This document shows positions 12,795 through 33,568 of a DNA stretch of 64,000 bases, one piece after another (positions within the stretch are counted from its first letter, which is position 1; each line of letters begins with the position of its first letter). The DNA comes from Bradyrhizobium sp. CB1015. GTDB lineage: Bacteria > Pseudomonadota > Alphaproteobacteria > Rhizobiales > Xanthobacteraceae. The notes under the pieces are model-generated. The model was not told the DNA's origin. It did no database searches and saw only the letters and a list, made by a program, of their open reading frames with translations. The stretch spans positions 5,952,001 to 6,016,000 of the forward strand of contig NZ_CP104174.1 in assembly GCF_025200925.1 (NCBI RefSeq), in the 5' to 3' direction. A program made the translations under genes and the position numbers.

Positions 12795-12938
12795 AGGCCT
12801 ATGCTTCTCCCCAAATCAGCTGACCGCACTGCAAAAACTGTGGCCCTCGTGGCACGGGAATTGCTGAAATGTTAGGCTGGTGGCAGAACTGACCTCTCGC
12901 CGCTGCCGCCGATTTGACTCTAAACTGACGGATCCACC

Positions 12939-13880
12939 TTGCTCGGATATCTCCTTCGCCGAATTCTCGCCGCCGTGCCCGTGATGGGCGTGGTGGCGCT
13001 GTTCGTGTTCCTCCTGCTCCGCCTCACCCCCGGCGATCCCGCCGCGATCCTCGCTGGCGACAACGCGACGCCGGAACGGCTCGAGCGCATCCGCGAGTCG
13101 CTCGGTCTCAACGAGCCGCTGATCGTGCAGTTCATCACCTGGGTGAACAAGCTGCTGCATGGCGACCTCGGAACCTCGCTGATCTCCAACCTGCCGGTGA
13201 TGAAGATGATCGGCCAGCGCGTCGAGCCGTCGATCTCGATCGCGCTGTGCACCATCATCCTCGCCGTCATCGTCGCAGTTCCCCTGGGGGTGATCGCGGC
13301 GTGGAAGCACGGCACCTGGATCGACCGCTTCGTGATGGCTCTGTCCGTGCTCGGCTTCTCGGTGCCGGTGTTCGTGGTCGGCTATGTCCTGATCGAGGTC
13401 TTCGCGATCGAGTTGCGGTGGGTGCCGGTGCAGGGCTTCCGCAGCATCTTCAACGGCTTCGGTCCGTTCTTCGAGCGCATGATCCTGCCGACCTGCGCGC
13501 TGTCCTTCATCTACATCGCACTGATCGCGCGCATGACGCGTGCGGCGATGCTGGACGTGCTCGGCGAGGATTACGTGCGAACGGCGCGCGCAAAGGGCAT
13601 CAACGAGGTCGCGGTGATGATGCGCCATGCGCTGCGCAACGCCGCCGTGCCCGTGATCACCGTGATCGGCACCGGCTTTGCGCTCTTGATCTCCGGCGTC
13701 GTGGTCACCGAGAGCGTGTTCAACATCCCCGGCATCGGCCGCCTCACCGTCGATGCGGTGCTGGCGCGCGACTATCCCGTGATCCAGGCGATGATCCTGC
13801 TGACGTCGCTGATCTACGTCGTCGTCAATCTTCTCATCGACGTCGCCTACACCCTGCTCGATCCCCGGATCCGGTACTGA
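12939..13880 (+). CDS. ABC transporter permease, DppB type
   Basis: A 313-residue inner-membrane permease. The N-terminal helix MLGYLLRRILAAVPVMGVVA and the following TPGDPAA segment are hallmarks of the DppB/OppB/NikB family. The EAA-type loop is in EDYVRTARAKGINE (near residue 210). Six membrane segments are expected. It pairs with the next gene to form the import channel. The start is a TTG at 12939, chosen because the family N-terminus begins exactly there; the ribosome site is weak. Confidence 0.92.
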   Translation: MLGYLLRRILAAVPVMGVVALFVFLLLRLTPGDPAAILAGDNATPERLERIRESLGLNEPLIVQFITWVNKLLHGDLGTSLISNLPVMKMIGQRVEPSISIALCTIILAVIVAVPLGVIAAWKHGTWIDRFVMALSVLGFSVPVFVVGYVLIEVFAIELRWVPVQGFRSIFNGFGPFFERMILPTCALSFIYIALIARMTRAAMLDVLGEDYVRTARAKGINEVAVMMRHALRNAAVPVITVIGTGFALLISGVVVTESVFNIPGIGRLTVDAVLARDYPVIQAMILLTSLIYVVVNLLIDVAYTLLDPRIRY

Positions 13881-27062: not shown

Positions 27063-27800
27063 CTAGCGGTTGACGTTCAATCCCGCCAGCATTTCCTTCA
27101 CCGCGGCCATTGCCGCCGCGAGCTTCTCCGGATCGCGCGAGCGCACCACCAGATTGGTGTTGGGCTTCTGCTCCTCGTCCATGAAGGGATAGCTGCCGAT
27201 GATGGTGTCGGGATGGGCGGCGGCGATCGCCCGCAGCGGACCGCCGATGTCGCCCTCGCGCGCATTGGCGCGGACCGACTCGGACAGCATGCGCACGCCC
27301 GACTTCAGCTTGGGCGCGACGATGTCCATCATCGCCTGCATGATCGACGGCACGCCGGCCATGACGATGACGTTGCCGATCTTGAAGCCGGGCGCGAGGA
27401 TGGTCGCGCTCTGGATCAGCTCGGCACCGTCGGGGATGCGGGCCATGCGCAGGCGGGCCTCGTTGAGGTCCTGCTCGCTCCAGCGCTCGCGGAAACGGGC
27501 GACCACCTCCGGGTGATGGTCGATGCCGACGCCGAACGCCTTGGCGACGCTATCTGCGGTGATGTCGTCATGGGTCGGCCCGATGCCGCCCGTGGTGAAG
27601 ACGTAGGTGTAGCGATGCCGCAATGCATCCAACGCGGCGATGATGTCGGGTTCGTCATCGGAGACGATGCGGACCTCCTTCAGGTCGATGCCGATATTGG
27701 TCAGGTATTCGGCGATGAAGCCGATATTCTTGTCCTTGGTCCGGCCGGACAGGATTTCGTCTCCAATGACCAGAATGCCCGCCGTGACGATCTCGCTCAT
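27063..27800 (-). CDS. CinA-type molybdopterin-binding domain protein
   Basis: A 245-residue protein with the MoCF/CinA N-terminal domain: AGILVIGDEILSGRTKDKN at residues 7-25 and the nucleotide-binding loop TTGGIGPTHDDITADSVAK near residue 70. The C-terminal amidase domain of full CinA (nicotinamide-nucleotide deamidase) is absent, so this is the short form common in alphaproteobacteria. Its precise role is unclear; FAD/ADP-ribose pyrophosphatase activity is described for related domains. It is divergent from the Anbu locus. Confidence 0.88.
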   Translation of the reverse strand: MSEIVTAGILVIGDEILSGRTKDKNIGFIAEYLTNIGIDLKEVRIVSDDEPDIIAALDALRHRYTYVFTTGGIGPTHDDITADSVAKAFGVGIDHHPEVVARFRERWSEQDLNEARLRMARIPDGAELIQSATILAPGFKIGNVIVMAGVPSIMQAMMDIVAPKLKSGVRMLSESVRANAREGDIGGPLRAIAAAHPDTIIGSYPFMDEEQKPNTNLVVRSRDPEKLAAAMAAVKEMLAGLNVNR

Positions 27801-28077
27801 GCCTTAAGTCCCTCACCTGTGACGCCGACTTTGCCGAGGTAACGCGTTGAAGTCACGCGGTTTTGCTTCTGAAATAAGCAGTCTTCAGCCATTTTTTCAG
27901 GCACGCCGCCGGCCATCACCGGCAAATGCCCCTTCTCCATGCTTATCGCGCTGGCCCGGCCCTTGCTACCACATGAAAGTCATGCACTGTTGACGCATGG
28001 CCAGGACGTTGCGGTCTTCACCAAGGCCTGACGACCTGTCGAATGGCGCAACGCCTTGCGGAGACAAGTCGGGATCT

Positions 28078-29496
28078 ATGGCAGTCGCGTTTGATGAGAT
28101 GAACATTCCCGGCGGGGACCTTCGCCCCGCCTATCAGGAGCTGGCGCGCTGGCTCAAGGACACGCCTCCCGAGGCGCTCGAATATCGCCGTCAGGAAGCC
28201 GAGCTCCTGTTCCGCCGGATCGGCATCACCTTCGCGGTCTACGGCGATTCCGAATCCACCGAGCGCCTGATCCCCTTCGATGTGATTCCACGGATCATGT
28301 CCGCCAAGGAATGGGCCGTCCTGGAGAGGGGCCTGAAGCAGCGCGTGCGCGCGCTCAACATGTTCCTGCGCGACATCTATCACGGCCGCGACATCCTGCG
28401 CGCCGAGGTCGTGCCCGACGACCTGATCTTCCAGAATCCGGTGTTCCGGCCCGAGATGAACGGCCAGCAGGTGCCGCATGACGTCTACGTGCACATCGCC
28501 GGCATCGACATCGTCCGGGTCGACGCCGAGGACTTCATCGTGCTGGAGGACAACGCCCGCACGCCGTCGGGCGTGTCCTACATGCTGGAAAACCGCGAGA
28601 TCATGATGCGGCTGTTTCCGGATCTGTTCGCCCGCCACAAGGTGGCGCCGGTCGAGCGCTATCCGGACGAGTTGCTCGCCGCGCTCCGCTCGGTCGCGCC
28701 GCAAGGCGCCTCTGGCGAGCCGACGGTGGCCCTGCTCACCCCAGGCGTCTACAATTCGGCCTATTACGAGCACTCCTTCCTCGCCGACAAGCTCGGCATC
28801 GAGCTGGTCGAGGGCCGCGACCTCGTCGTCAAGAACAACGAAGTGTTCATGCGGACGACGGAAGGGCTGAAGCGGGTCGACGTGATCTATCGCCGCGTCG
28901 ACGACGATTTCCTCGATCCCCTCACCTTCCGTCCCGATTCCGTGCTCGGCGTGCCCGGCCTGATGTCGGCCTATGCGGCCGGCAACATCACGCTCGCCAA
29001 CGCCGTCGGCACCGGCATCGCCGACGACAAGGCGATCTACTCCTACATGCCCGACATCGTGAAATTCTATCTCGGCGAGGAGCCGATCCTGAAGAACGTG
29101 CCGACCTGGCGCTGCCGCGAGCCGAAGGACCTCGCCTATGTGCTGGACAACTTGAGCGAGCTCGTCGTCAAGGAAGTGCACGGCTCTGGCGGCTACGGCA
29201 TGCTGATCGGTCCCGCCGCGACCAAGGCGACGATCGAAGCGTTCCGCGACAAGCTCAAGCGCGAGCCGGAAGGCTTCATCGCCCAGCCCACGCTGGCGCT
29301 TTCGACCTGCCCGACCTGCACGGCGTCGGGCCTCGCCCCGCGCCACGTCGATCTTCGCCCCTTCGTGCTCACGGGCAGCAAGAGCACGACGATCGTGCCG
29401 GGCGGGCTCACCCGCGTTGCGCTCAAGGAAGGCTCCCTGGTGGTGAATTCGAGCCAGGGCGGCGGCACCAAGGACACCTGGATTTTGGACGAGTAG
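28078..29496 (+). CDS. circularly permuted type 2 ATP-grasp protein
   Basis: A 472-residue protein of the circularly permuted ATP-grasp family (formerly DUF404/DUF407). Features: YGDSESTERLIPFDVIPRI near residue 54, VLEDNARTPSGVSYMLENR near 155, a predicted metal- or ATP-binding IADDKAIYSYM and the glycine-rich VVKEVHGSGGYGMLIGP near 365. The family is predicted to form amide bonds to amino acids or peptides, like a peptide ligase. Start: ATG 28078. It leads a same-strand group with an alpha-E protein (4 bp gap), a transglutaminase-like protein and the Anbu peptidase. This association is known from other bacteria. Confidence 0.93.
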   Translation: MAVAFDEMNIPGGDLRPAYQELARWLKDTPPEALEYRRQEAELLFRRIGITFAVYGDSESTERLIPFDVIPRIMSAKEWAVLERGLKQRVRALNMFLRDIYHGRDILRAEVVPDDLIFQNPVFRPEMNGQQVPHDVYVHIAGIDIVRVDAEDFIVLEDNARTPSGVSYMLENREIMMRLFPDLFARHKVAPVERYPDELLAALRSVAPQGASGEPTVALLTPGVYNSAYYEHSFLADKLGIELVEGRDLVVKNNEVFMRTTEGLKRVDVIYRRVDDDFLDPLTFRPDSVLGVPGLMSAYAAGNITLANAVGTGIADDKAIYSYMPDIVKFYLGEEPILKNVPTWRCREPKDLAYVLDNLSELVVKEVHGSGGYGMLIGPAATKATIEAFRDKLKREPEGFIAQPTLALSTCPTCTASGLAPRHVDLRPFVLTGSKSTTIVPGGLTRVALKEGSLVVNSSQGGGTKDTWILDE

Positions 29497-29500
29497 AGAG

Positions 29501-30445
29501 ATGCTGTCGCGTACCGCCGAAAACCTCTACTGGCTCGCCCGCTACGTCGAACGGGCCGAATATCTCGCGCGCACCATCGATGCGACGCTGCGCGTCACCG
29601 CGCTTCCCGCCGCCTATATCGGCAAGACCAATGAATGGGATTCGGCGCTGCTCACCGCCGGCGTCGCCGCGAGCTTCTATCAGGCCTATGAGGAAGCCAA
29701 CGAGCACAACGTCGTCGAGTATCTCTCGTTCTCCCAGAACAACCCGTCCTCGATCCGAAACTGCATCGAAGCGGCGCGGCTGAACTCGCGCTCGGTGCGC
29801 ACGGCGCTGACCAGCGAGATGTGGGACACCATCAATTCGGCCTGGATCGAGCTTCAGGCCGTGTGGAGCAAGGGCACCTCGACGCGCGAGGACCTCGCAA
29901 AATTCCTGCGCTTTGTGCAGGAGACCTCGCTGCGCTTCGACGGCTCGGCCTATCGGACCATGCTGCGCAACGACGCCTATTGGTTCTCGCGCATGGGCGT
30001 GCATCTGGAACGCGCCGACAACACCGCGCGCATCCTCGATGTGAAGTACCACGTGCTGCTGCCCGAGGAGGAGCATGTCGGCGGCCCGCTCGACTTCTAC
30101 CAGTGGAGCTCGATCCTGCGCTCGGTCTCGGCGCTGACGGCCTATCACTGGGTCTATCGCGAGACGCTGAAACCATGGCTGATCGCGGACCTCCTGATCC
30201 TCAACGACACGCTGCCGCGTTCGCTCGCCAGCTGCTACGGCAACCTCGTTCGCAACCTCGACCAGATCGGCGTCGCCTATGGCCGCCAGGGCCCGGCCCA
30301 GCGCCACGCCCGCGGCATCCGCAACCGGCTGGAACACAGCAACATGAACGACATTTTCCAGCATGGCGTGCATGAATTCATTCAGGAATTCATCGCGGAC
30401 AATTCCAGGCTGGGCGAAATCATCACGAAGCAGTATTTGATCTGA
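29501..30445 (+). CDS. alpha-E domain protein (DUF403)
   Basis: A 314-residue, almost entirely helical protein. It starts MLSRTAENLYWLARYVERAE, the standard opening of the alpha-E family, and carries a second repeat-like motif MGVHLERADNTARILDVKYH near residue 165. No enzyme motif is known. In established genomic context it accompanies the permuted ATP-grasp enzyme, here only 4 bp upstream, so the two probably form a complex. A direct function is not known. Confidence 0.93.
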   Translation: MLSRTAENLYWLARYVERAEYLARTIDATLRVTALPAAYIGKTNEWDSALLTAGVAASFYQAYEEANEHNVVEYLSFSQNNPSSIRNCIEAARLNSRSVRTALTSEMWDTINSAWIELQAVWSKGTSTREDLAKFLRFVQETSLRFDGSAYRTMLRNDAYWFSRMGVHLERADNTARILDVKYHVLLPEEEHVGGPLDFYQWSSILRSVSALTAYHWVYRETLKPWLIADLLILNDTLPRSLASCYGNLVRNLDQIGVAYGRQGPAQRHARGIRNRLEHSNMNDIFQHGVHEFIQEFIADNSRLGEIITKQYLI

Positions 30446-30453
30446 CCCACGCT

Positions 30454-30557
30454 GTCGCTCCGGGATGGTCCGAAGCACCAGACCCGGAACCTCGAGATTC
30501 TCAGGTGCGCAATTGCGCCCCGGAGTTCGATGCTCGCGCATCGCCCCGGAATGACGG
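30454..30557. repeat. GTCATTCCGG-type palindromic repeat inside the Anbu locus
   Basis: About 104 bp beginning TCGCTCCGGGATGG and ending CGCCCCGGAATGACGG, with GCACCAGACCCGGAACCTCG and TCTCAGGTGCGCAATTGCGC inside. It lies between the alpha-E and transglutaminase genes. Confidence 0.75.
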
Positions 30558-30569
30558 AATCAAAACACC

Positions 30570-31418
30570 ATGCGCCTGCGAATCCTGCACACCACGACCT
30601 ATCGCTACGAGCCGCCGGCCACCAGCGTGATCCAGATCCTGCGCATGACGCCGGGCAGCCATGACGGGCAGTACGTCGCGGAATGGCAGATCGACGTCTC
30701 TACCGACACCAAGCTCGACATGCATGAGGACGCCTTCGGCAACCTCACCCACGTGCTGTCCTGCGGGCCCGTCGGCGACATCCAGATCATTGCCGAAGGG
30801 CTGATCGAGACCCACGACACCGGCGGCGTGCTGCGCGGCGCCGATGAGCGTTTTCCCCCCGGCATGTTCCTGCGCGCCACCGACCTCACCTCGGTCAATC
30901 CGGCGATGGCGGCGGTCGCACGCCAGTTGCGCAGCGAGGCCGAGAGCGACACGCTGGGCTTCCTGCACACGCTGATGACGCAGGTTGCCGATCACATGAC
31001 GTTCGACGAGGACCCCACCAACAGCGGCACGTCCGCAGCGGAGGCGTTCACGCTCAAGCGCGGGGTCTGCCAGGATTACGCGCAAATCTTTATTGCCTGC
31101 GCCCGCGCCGGCGGCGTGCCGGCGCGCTTCGTCTCCGGGCATTTCCTGCGCGCCGACGACACCCTGCATCAGGACGCCGGCCATGCCTGGGCGGAGGCCT
31201 ATGTGCCCGATCTCGGCTGGGTCGGCTTCGATCCCGCCAACAGCATCTGCGCTACCGACGCGCATGTCCGCGTTGCGATCGGGCTCGACTATCTCGGCGC
31301 GGCCCCGGTGCGCGGCACGCGCTACGGCGGCGGCACGGAAACGCTGACGGTGGCGGTGAAGGTCGAACAGGCCGGCCGCGGCGGGCAGTCGCAATCGCAG
31401 TCCCAGCGGCAGGGCTAG
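30570..31418 (+). CDS. transglutaminase-like cysteine peptidase family protein
   Basis: A 282-residue protein with the bacterial transglutaminase N-terminal beta domain (MRLRILHTTTYRYEPPATSV) and a papain-like core. The catalytic triad is complete: C167 in KRGVCQDYA, H205 in DAGHAWAEAYV and D221 in GWVGFDPAN. Relatives cleave or form isopeptide-type bonds. It belongs to the ATP-grasp/alpha-E group; in such loci it is predicted to act on the peptide made by the ATP-grasp enzyme. No signal peptide, so it acts in the cytoplasm. Confidence 0.93.
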   Translation: MRLRILHTTTYRYEPPATSVIQILRMTPGSHDGQYVAEWQIDVSTDTKLDMHEDAFGNLTHVLSCGPVGDIQIIAEGLIETHDTGGVLRGADERFPPGMFLRATDLTSVNPAMAAVARQLRSEAESDTLGFLHTLMTQVADHMTFDEDPTNSGTSAAEAFTLKRGVCQDYAQIFIACARAGGVPARFVSGHFLRADDTLHQDAGHAWAEAYVPDLGWVGFDPANSICATDAHVRVAIGLDYLGAAPVRGTRYGGGTETLTVAVKVEQAGRGGQSQSQSQRQG

Positions 31419-31485
31419 GAGTTGCCAGCCGAACGCATTCGGCGTGCTACACTTGCGGGATCTGATCAGACCGGCGAGGTAGCCC

Positions 31486-31893
31486 ATGGCGACTGTGAAA
31501 CTGCTTTCGGATGATGAACTCTCGGCCGAGGCGCGCGCCGTCTTCGACGATATCCGCAAGGTGCGGAAATCGGACTTCGTCAACAATTTCTGGCGCGCGC
31601 TGGCGCATGATCCGAAGACGCTGCGGCGGACCTGGGAGAGCATCAAGGAGGTGATGGCTCCGGGTGCACTCGATCCCAAGGTCAAGGAAATGCTCTACGT
31701 TGCGGTGTCGATCGCGCATGGCTGCAGCTACTGCATCCACTCCCACACGGCCGCGGCACGGGCCAAGGGCATGACCGAGGCCGAATATGGCGAGCTGCTC
31801 GCCATCGTCGGCATGGCCGCAGAGACCAACCGGCTGGTCACGGCGCTCGGCGTGCCCGTCGACGAGGCGTTTCTGGTCGATGCCGCGGACTGA
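31486..31893 (+). CDS. carboxymuconolactone decarboxylase/AhpD-like protein
   Basis: A 135-residue single-domain protein of the AhpD/CMD superfamily. It has the redox motif CSYCIHSH, a CxxCxxxH arrangement (C80, C83, H87), which points to peroxidase or disulfide-relay activity rather than decarboxylase activity. The final part (VGMAAETNRLVTALGV) is the usual helix. It sits between the transglutaminase gene and the Anbu gene on the same strand; whether it belongs to that system is an inference from position. Confidence 0.88.
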   Translation: MATVKLLSDDELSAEARAVFDDIRKVRKSDFVNNFWRALAHDPKTLRRTWESIKEVMAPGALDPKVKEMLYVAVSIAHGCSYCIHSHTAAARAKGMTEAEYGELLAIVGMAAETNRLVTALGVPVDEAFLVDAAD

Positions 31894-31905
31894 GCGGCAA
31901 AGCTA

Positions 31906-31945
31906 GCGTCATTCCGGGCTGGCGCTTACGCGCCCCGGAATGACA
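31906..31945. repeat. short GTCATTCCGGG hairpin
   Basis: The arms GCGTCATTCCGGGCTGGCGC and GCGCCCCGGAATGACA-like form a hairpin just after the AhpD-like stop. It is a minimal copy of the 14799 element and could affect read-through into the Anbu gene. Confidence 0.8.
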
Positions 31946-32027
31946 GCCTTCCCCCGCGGGAATCGGGGGTTTCATGCCTCCCCGAAATTGGCTAGTAATT
32001 CCGCGCAAACGCGTTCGGGGACTGGAA

Positions 32028-32786
32028 ATGACCTATTGCTGCGGAATCCTGGTTCGGGACGGTCTGGTGATGATTGCCGACACCCGCACCAATGCCGGCC
32101 TCGACAACGTCTCGACCTTCCGCAAGCTGCACATCTTCTCCAAGCCCGGCGAGCGCATCATGGCGATCGCCAGTGCCGGCAACCTCGCCATCAGCCAGTC
32201 GGTGCTGTCGACGCTGACCGAGGGCCTCGAAGACCCCAACACGGGCGAGATCGAGACGCTGATGAATGCGCCGACCATGTTCCAGGCCGCCCAGCGCATC
32301 GGCCGGGCGATCCGCGCGGTGCATGCCACCGAAGGGCCGGCGCTGAAATCCGAGGACGTCTCCTTCGACGTCTCCTTCCTGTTCGGCGGCCAGATCAAGG
32401 GCGCGCGCATGCGCCTGTTCATGGTCTACACCGCCGGCAATTTCATCGAGTGCACCACCGACACGCCCTACCTGCAGATCGGCGAGCACAAATACGGCAA
32501 GCCGGTGCTCGACCGCGCCATGCATTACGACGTCGAGCTCTACGAGGCGCTGAAGACGGGCCTGATCTCGATGGACTCGACGATGCGATCGAATCTCGGC
32601 GTCGGCCTGCCGATCGATGTGCTGGTGGTGCGCACCGACGCCTGCGAAGCGGATCTCAACCACCGCATCGAGGCGGGCGAGCCTTATTTCCACGACCTGC
32701 GCTCACGCTGGTCGGCGGCCTTGCGCGCGGCTCATCAGAACATTCCGCGCCCGCCCTACAAGAACGACAAAGAACCCAAGACCTGA
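32028..32786 (+). CDS. anbu: Anbu proteasome-type peptidase
   Basis: A 252-residue proteasome beta-type Ntn hydrolase of the Anbu family (sister to HslV and 20S beta). The start is ATG 32028, which places Thr2 (MTYCCGIL) as the N-terminal nucleophile after Met removal. D18 in [10 protein letters not shown] and K33 in FRKLHIF are the partner residues. The following [10 protein letters not shown] corresponds to the glycine loop that fixes the substrate. Anbu self-assembles into rings or helices without an obvious ATPase partner. Its known neighbours, ATP-grasp, alpha-E and transglutaminase, are all found just upstream here. Confidence 0.93.
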
Positions 32787-32809: not shown

Positions 32810-33568
32810 ATGAGTGAAGCGAAAAAGATCGCATTGGTGACGGGCGCCGGCACCGGCGTCGGGCGCGCGGCGTCGCTGGCGCTGATGAACACCGGCTTCA
32901 CCGTGGTGCTCGCAGGCCGCCGGCTCGACATGCTCGAGGAGACGGCGAAGCTCGGACCCGCGGGAAAAAGCCTCTGCGTCACCGCCGACATGACCAAGCC
33001 GGACCAGATTGCCGCGCTGTTCGACAAGGTGAAGGCGACCTATGGCCGCCTCGACGTGCTCTTCAACAATGCCGGCATGGGCGCGCCGGCCGTGAACTTC
33101 GAGGACCTCAGCCTCGAGCAATGGCAGGCCGTGGTGAACACCAACCTCACCGGCCCGTTCCTGTGCACCCAGCACGCCTTCCGCATCATGAAGGACCAGA
33201 GCCCGCGCGGCGGCCGCATCATCAACAATGGCTCGATCTCCGCGCACGCGCCGCGGCCGTTCTCGGCGGCCTACACCTCGACCAAGCACGCCATCACCGG
33301 CCTGACCAAGGCGAGCAATCTCGACGGCCGCATGTACGACATCGCGGTCGGCCAGGTCGACATCGGCAATGCCGCGACCCCGATGACCGATCGCATGGTC
33401 AACGGCCCCGGCGTGCTGCAGCCCGACGGCACCACCAAGCACGAGCCGCGCATGGACGCGAAAGCGGTCGGCGATGCCGTGGCCTACATGGCCAGCCTGC
33501 CGCTCGATGCCAACGTGCTGACCATGACGGTGATGGCGACCAAGATGCCGTTCGTGGGGCGGGGCTGA
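32810..33568 (+). CDS. SDR family oxidoreductase
   Basis: A 252-residue short-chain dehydrogenase/reductase. It has the cofactor motif [10 protein letters not shown] (residues 11-20), NNAG (near 87), the Ser of [12 protein letters not shown] and the catalytic YTSTK. The substrate is not known. Start ATG 32810 has AGGAAA upstream and comes 23 bp after the Anbu stop, so it is probably co-transcribed with it. SDR genes are frequent chance neighbours, so a functional tie is uncertain. Confidence 0.92.

Follow-up and report, generated by a model that had tools for sequence, protein, structure and literature searches.

The Anbu operon, in which a proteasome-like hydrolase (Anbu) is accompanied by an ATP-grasp ligase, an alpha-E protein and a transglutaminase-like protein, was reportedly described by Valas and Bourne in 2008 and by Iyer et al. 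in 2009. A locus of this kind is present on the plus strand of a 64,000-nucleotide stretch (the window) of the 8.4-Mb single-contig genome of Bradyrhizobium sp. CB1015, where it extends from the ATG of the ATP-grasp gene at 28078 to the end of the Anbu stop codon at 32786. The same four-gene operon appears in two structural papers (PMC5666114, PMC6376114), which credit it to these two publications. In the structural papers, phosphate was released by the ATP-grasp protein and other Anbu proteins formed an open split-ring assembly, and in a 2021 survey (PMC8665760) the function of the group was still not known. Although the four-gene association was already known, our comparison points to four new features, namely a conserved promoter of the nitrogen-starvation type in front of the ligase half of the group, a one-way dependence of Anbu on the ligase genes, an apparently dispensable transglutaminase cysteine, and the frequent separation of Anbu from the other genes within the genus.

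Within the published Anbu/alpha-E/ATP-grasp/transglutaminase-like group the Bradyrhizobium locus is an ordinary case, with the same four families, gene order, strand and catalytic residues. It differs in the insertion of an AhpD/CMD-family gene, in the sigma54/NtrC-type promoter found upstream of the ATP-grasp gene, and in that Anbu often appears to occupy a separate transcription unit in this genus. An initial annotation of the window had placed the four families on one strand, with the alpha-E gene 4 bp after the ATP-grasp gene and with catalytic residues C167/H205/D221 in the transglutaminase-like protein and T2/D18/K33 in Anbu, and had described the association as known from comparative genomics. 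It was found that the coordinates were exact, that Pfam confirmed the families, as did solved structures for all but alpha-E, that the gap is 4 nt, that all of the residues are present, and that the association is indeed published (PMC5666114, PMC6376114). The description of a complete locus was fair in that all four genes are present, but reading it as one operon would be unfair, and the CMD gene and promoter elements had been missed. The remaining gaps are 124 nt (alpha-E/transglutaminase-like), 67 nt (transglutaminase-like/CMD) and 134 nt (CMD/Anbu).

A sigma54-type -24/-12 promoter, TGGCCCGGCCCTTGCT, was identified upstream of the ATP-grasp gene by scoring against the sigma54 consensus TGGCACG-N4-TTGCW. 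A site matching at least 10 of the 12 consensus positions was present upstream of the ATP-grasp gene in 36/36 genomes of the genus (this genome included), 35 of which scored 11/12, and at most 2 of 100 shuffles scored as well. When the genus was aligned, 12 of the 16 columns of the site were invariant, compared to 39 of the 179 columns in the rest of that intergenic region. Among 80 named loci, a site of at least 10/12 preceded the ATP-grasp gene in 42, relative to 1.67 expected, and no such site was found upstream of the alpha-E (0/79), transglutaminase-like (0/74) or Anbu gene (0/61), where the denominators are the named loci in which each gene was found (the contig-edge fragment L161 was left out for the transglutaminase-like gene). 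Because the 80 named loci include many close relatives, the scan was repeated with one genome per other genus, and the site was found in 26 of 70 genera and 16 of 43 families, compared to 1.45 by shuffling and 2/70 on the reverse strand. ATP-grasp matches came from 73 genera, of which three were left out: the window's own genus, g24 and one at a contig edge. None of the 10 unlinked Anbu copies scanned (of 15) had a site. The same pattern gave 33 matches in the whole genome as opposed to 7 for a reversed control, including the promoters of genes that read by eye as nifH and dctA, and is therefore meaningful genome-wide. Sigma54 control of the Anbu locus in Bradyrhizobium was not found in the literature searched, which included PMC13207237, PMC4842269 and PMC10454721; it may be among the 1201 RpoN-like promoters tabulated in the supplement of PMC4842269, which was outside the search. 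PMC13207237 gives a different site for an ATP-grasp gene that may be this one or another.

Further upstream lies a dyad, TGCTTCTGAAATAAGCA, a candidate NtrC-type enhancer. The arrangement TGC-N11-GCA is the NtrC pattern. A TGC-N11-GCA dyad was found 88-90 bp upstream of the sigma54 site in 36/36 genomes of the genus (this genome included), with the outer TGC and GCA invariant, and in the scan of other genera such a dyad accompanied 10 of 26 loci with a sigma54 site, relative to 2.2 expected. The glnK-like gene of this genome has two similar TGC-N11-GCA dyads upstream, together with a box resembling a sigma54 site.

The sequence GTCATGCACTG at 27979-27989, just 3′ of the sigma54 site and near the expected transcription start, is nearly invariant in the 36 genus genomes. 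A 12/12 sigma54 site is located at 12850-12865, 15 kb upstream of the Anbu locus, with its first base 89 bp ahead of the TTG of a permease gene of the binding-protein-dependent type (12939-13880; PF00528) that looks like part of a peptide ATP-binding cassette (ABC) transporter.

Published data connect the same gene families with nitrogen. In Pseudomonas putida grown on nitrate relative to ammonium, PP_2688 (ATP-grasp) and PP_2685 (Anbu) were increased by log2 values of 3.99 and 4.44, or about 16- to 22-fold, and the isolated PP_2688 promoter was induced 3.7-fold on nitrogen depletion, whereas the isolated PP_2685 promoter was not nitrogen-responsive (PMC8050072). This is the same split that we see in the presence of a sigma54 site on the ATP-grasp gene and not on Anbu. 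PP2685-PP2687 were also up under nitrogen limitation (PMC3325844), the NtrC/sigma54 regulon of Burkholderia cenocepacia includes DUF404/407, DUF403 and transglutaminase genes (PMC5491218), and in marine metagenomes the domains of this group cluster with urea metabolism (PMC3597751). The P. putida genes PP_2685-PP_2688 and the Bradyrhizobium locus are alike in gene families and differ in how nitrogen control comes into view, by expression in the former and by a promoter sequence conserved in many Pseudomonadota families in the latter.

The distribution of the genes was evaluated in 60 genomes (this one included; 36 of the genus and 24 of the order) and in 249 Pseudomonadota genomes. In the former set Anbu was present in 46 genomes and 49 had both alpha-E and ATP-grasp, neither occurring without the other, and the numbers of ATP-grasp and alpha-E matches were equal in each of the 60. 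In the latter set ATP-grasp was present in 136 genomes and Anbu in 85; ATP-grasp was also found in 84 of the 85 Anbu genomes, the sole exception being a draft genome, whereas Anbu was absent from 52 of the 136 ATP-grasp genomes. The dependence thus runs in one direction, of Anbu on the ligase genes. Considering the unfused ATP-grasp genes among the matches listed, 71 of 86 Anbu copies were within 15 kb of such a gene and 15 were not; 65 of the 71 lay downstream of it and shared its strand. All four genes were present in 60 of the 80 named loci, which were chosen by ATP-grasp; some of the other 20 end before Anbu could appear. In genome G059, the absence of Anbu may be due to a contig end. The conservation of the whole group, proposed in the initial annotation as a check, is therefore borne out, and the genes are not scattered in most relatives.

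Catalytic residues were conserved unequally. The Anbu triad, with the Thr nucleophile directly after Met1 and the accompanying Asp and Lys, was invariant in 37/37 aligned rows (the window and 36 of 57 full-length loci). The cysteine of the transglutaminase-like protein was missing in 14 of 120 sequences (11 of 73 named and 3 of 47 from an unnamed set), while D221 was kept in 120/120; the 120 sequences are 119 distinct ones, named locus L102 being identical to genome G006, and in two of the three losses in the unnamed set the stretch aligns poorly but is without any cysteine. The losses include Bosea, several Methylobacterium, Chthonobacter and Lichenifustis, among others, and 8 of the 11 named loci without the cysteine still carry Anbu. 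In several lineages the protein therefore has the look of a pseudoenzyme, and unless another gene supplies its chemistry, that chemistry cannot be essential to the system everywhere.

Within the genus, Anbu is often set apart from the other genes. The transglutaminase-like gene and Anbu lay at least 1.9 kb, and up to 14.7 kb, apart in 16 of the 34 genomes with both genes on one contig (G033 and G035 have Anbu on another contig and were left out). The inserts vary and include the CMD gene, an acyl-CoA dehydrogenase gene and genes reading by eye as ABC transporters, and, in 11 loci, an opposite-strand gene for a family-5 solute-binding protein. In G002 the CMD gene itself is interrupted by about 12.6 kb (L004:5480-18574). 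In the window, the CMD gene and a 134-nt gap precede Anbu; this gene is present in the locus in part of the genus only and is a passenger there. Judged from gene order and strand, Anbu in this genus would often lie outside the transcription unit of the other locus genes. The insert in the CMD gene of G002 includes a Crp-like regulator.

These observations are best accommodated, we think with moderate confidence, by a nitrogen-limitation-induced amide-ligase module to which Anbu is added as an optional hydrolase. At the core would be ATP-grasp as the ATP-dependent amide ligase, with alpha-E as an obligate partner, as suggested by their families and 1:1 co-occurrence. This core would be transcribed under nitrogen limitation from the sigma54 promoter with an NtrC-type activator, as comparative sequence and the published nitrogen control in P. 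putida and Burkholderia suggest. The transglutaminase-like protein may be an accessory that need not be catalytic, because several lineages have lost its cysteine. Anbu would be an optional Thr-nucleophile hydrolase that, in view of the one-way dependence and the invariant triad, probably acts on the ligase product or a derivative of it. As the simplest guess, this product would be a small peptide or amide that is formed or reshaped in nitrogen starvation, rather than a protein-degradation tag. The make-and-cut system envisaged in the initial annotation is compatible with this distribution of Anbu and ATP-grasp, but a transglutaminase step as an obligatory part of it is weakened by the cysteine losses.

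Several results weigh against this interpretation. A site of at least 10/12 was lacking in 44 of the 70 genera, in 38 of the 80 named loci and in 10 of the 13 locus-bearing relatives at order level (3 of 13 reach that score), and sigma54 control is therefore not universal; of 11 upstream regions of the fused paralogue cluster, 10 had no site, and Anbu has none of its own and is distant from the transglutaminase-like gene in nearly half of the genus genomes. The site of the glnK-like gene has GA and not GC at -12 and would fail the scan that we used, so that the locus can be likened only roughly to a classical NtrC target. Enrichment of the dyad extended to loci lacking a strong sigma54 site (12 of 44, relative to 3.3 expected); either weaker sigma54 promoters were missed by the scan or the dyad serves other activators, so that an NtrC-type activator is only a candidate. 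In the published assays Anbu had no peptidase activity on proteasome substrates (PMC6376114, PMC5666114) and no complex of the four locus proteins was detected (PMC6376114), and direct coupling of ligase and Anbu is therefore unsupported by them.

A more specific form of the nitrogen-limitation reading is a make-and-recover cycle, in which the ATP-grasp and alpha-E proteins would make an amide-linked metabolite when NtrC is active, the transglutaminase-like protein would bind or deliver it, and Anbu, in some lineages only, would release the nitrogen. A role in binding or delivery would account for the dispensable cysteine. We entertain this cycle as a tentative and rather doubtful possibility. 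The neighbourhood could also be historical, with Anbu acting independently in general peptide turnover and the two modules belonging to unrelated pathways. This would suit family f51, in which Anbu is unlinked in all seven genomes that carry it (in three it is hundreds of kilobases away on the same contig, in four on another contig), the opposite-strand genes that split it off in the genus, the absence of a sigma54 site from its 61 named loci and 10 unlinked copies, and the undetected complex. Such independence nevertheless seems unlikely, given that ATP-grasp is retained in all but one of the Anbu genomes, even where the two are unlinked, and that in P. putida Anbu rises together with ATP-grasp (PMC8050072).

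Tagging of proteins with a peptide or amide by the ATP-grasp enzyme, followed by degradation of the tagged proteins or removal of the tag by Anbu along Pup-proteasome lines, has been proposed in print (PMC6376114, PMC5666114), and the initial annotation had drawn the same comparison. The two systems are alike in outline, with an amide ligase and a proteasome-family hydrolase; Anbu is related to proteasome beta subunits, and protein turnover would be favoured in nitrogen starvation. The likeness did not extend to the components. The Pup ligase family PF03136 had no match in the genome (a C. glutamicum control matched), the most compact locus, that of G047, with gaps of at most 8, 20 and 37 bp, leaves no room for a tag gene, which could however lie elsewhere, and a Pfam scan of nine proteins from the locus and its flanks found no unfoldase. 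Together with the split ring and missing peptidase activity noted above, this makes tagging distinctly improbable. We give still less credence to a glutathionylspermidine-like cycle, in which ATP-grasp would couple a polyamine with a peptide and an amidase of the cysteine or threonine type would split them again. Structure 3n6x was named a putative glutathionylspermidine synthase by its depositors, and an amine conjugate would fit nitrogen control, but the ATP-grasp family profile found no sequence in the Protein Data Bank (PDB) besides 3n6x at E-values up to 10, and the cysteine protein repeatedly loses its nucleophile.

In the cited papers Anbu is a proteasome relative without a known substrate, and the published assays tested peptidase activity. 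The promoter on the ligase half, the one-way dependence and the dispensable cysteine suggest looking in nitrogen-starved cells, with the product of the ATP-grasp enzyme as the first candidate substrate, and the nitrogen-type promoter gives the locus product a testable context.

The coordinates and family assignments are collected in Table 1. The assignments of the locus genes are far beyond chance. Anbu matched the solved Anbu/peptidase sequences 5loy, 5nyj (3e-74), 5nyf, 5nyw and 5lox, all at 6e-62 or better, and its Pfam match to PF00227 was weak by comparison. The closest named ATP-grasp loci were those of Bradyrhizobium, with protein identity up to 98%.

Table 1. Promoter elements, locus genes and flanking genes in the window.
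Feature	Position	Strand	Evidence or remark
Molybdopterin-binding-domain gene	27063-27800	minus	left flank of locus
TGC-N11-GCA dyad, candidate NtrC-type enhancer	27864..27880	+	88-90 bp upstream of -24 box
sigma54-type -24/-12 promoter	27952..27967	+	11/12 consensus positions
ATP-grasp type 2 ligase, circularly permuted	28078..29496	+	PF14403 5.7e-170, PF04174; 3n6x 3e-210
alpha-E protein	29501..30445	+	PF04168 1.2e-90
Transglutaminase-like (papain-fold) protein, C167/H205/D221	30570..31418	+	PF01841 1.3e-23, PF08379; 3isr 6.3e-10
AhpD/CMD-family gene	31486..31893	+	PF02627 7.2e-21
Anbu, proteasome-like N-terminal nucleophile (Ntn) hydrolase, T2/D18/K33	32028..32786	+	5loy 2.4e-82; PF00227 8.1e-06
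Short-chain dehydrogenase gene	32810-33568		right flank of locus

The alpha-E protein had no sequence match in the PDB, and no fold relative stood out for its predicted structure, which is all-helical and confident (predicted local distance difference test, pLDDT, 87.8). Its two ER motifs, E17-R18 and E170-R171, were invariant in 47 sequences and sit in stretches that look similar by eye, which suggests an internal duplication.

A second copy of the ligase genes is present in this genome (G000:C1, about 3381.8-3388.5 kb, L003). It resembles the Anbu locus in its ATP-grasp, alpha-E and transglutaminase-like partners and is unlike it in that ATP-grasp and alpha-E are fused (about 850 aa); no Anbu was found within the 15 kb examined (G000:C1:3379000-3394000). 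The fused gene has a transglutaminase-like gene on either side, one of them encoding about 1,100 aa, and a second alpha-E match was found in 35 of the 36 genus genomes. HslV is also encoded in the genome (L257; 1.3e-65 to solved HslV), and Anbu is therefore not its sole proteasome-family hydrolase.

Palindromic repeats of CGTCATTCCGGG gave 13 matches with at most one mismatch, relative to 0.7 expected (for example at 30545-30556, 31907-31945 and 22084-22205), and occur in two intergenic gaps of the Anbu locus. In a Xanthobacteraceae locus (L117:7581-8204), a LysE-type exporter gene lies between ATP-grasp and alpha-E, with similar-sized gaps in L116 and L118; such an exporter of amino acids or small peptides inside the operon could hint at the nature of the product.

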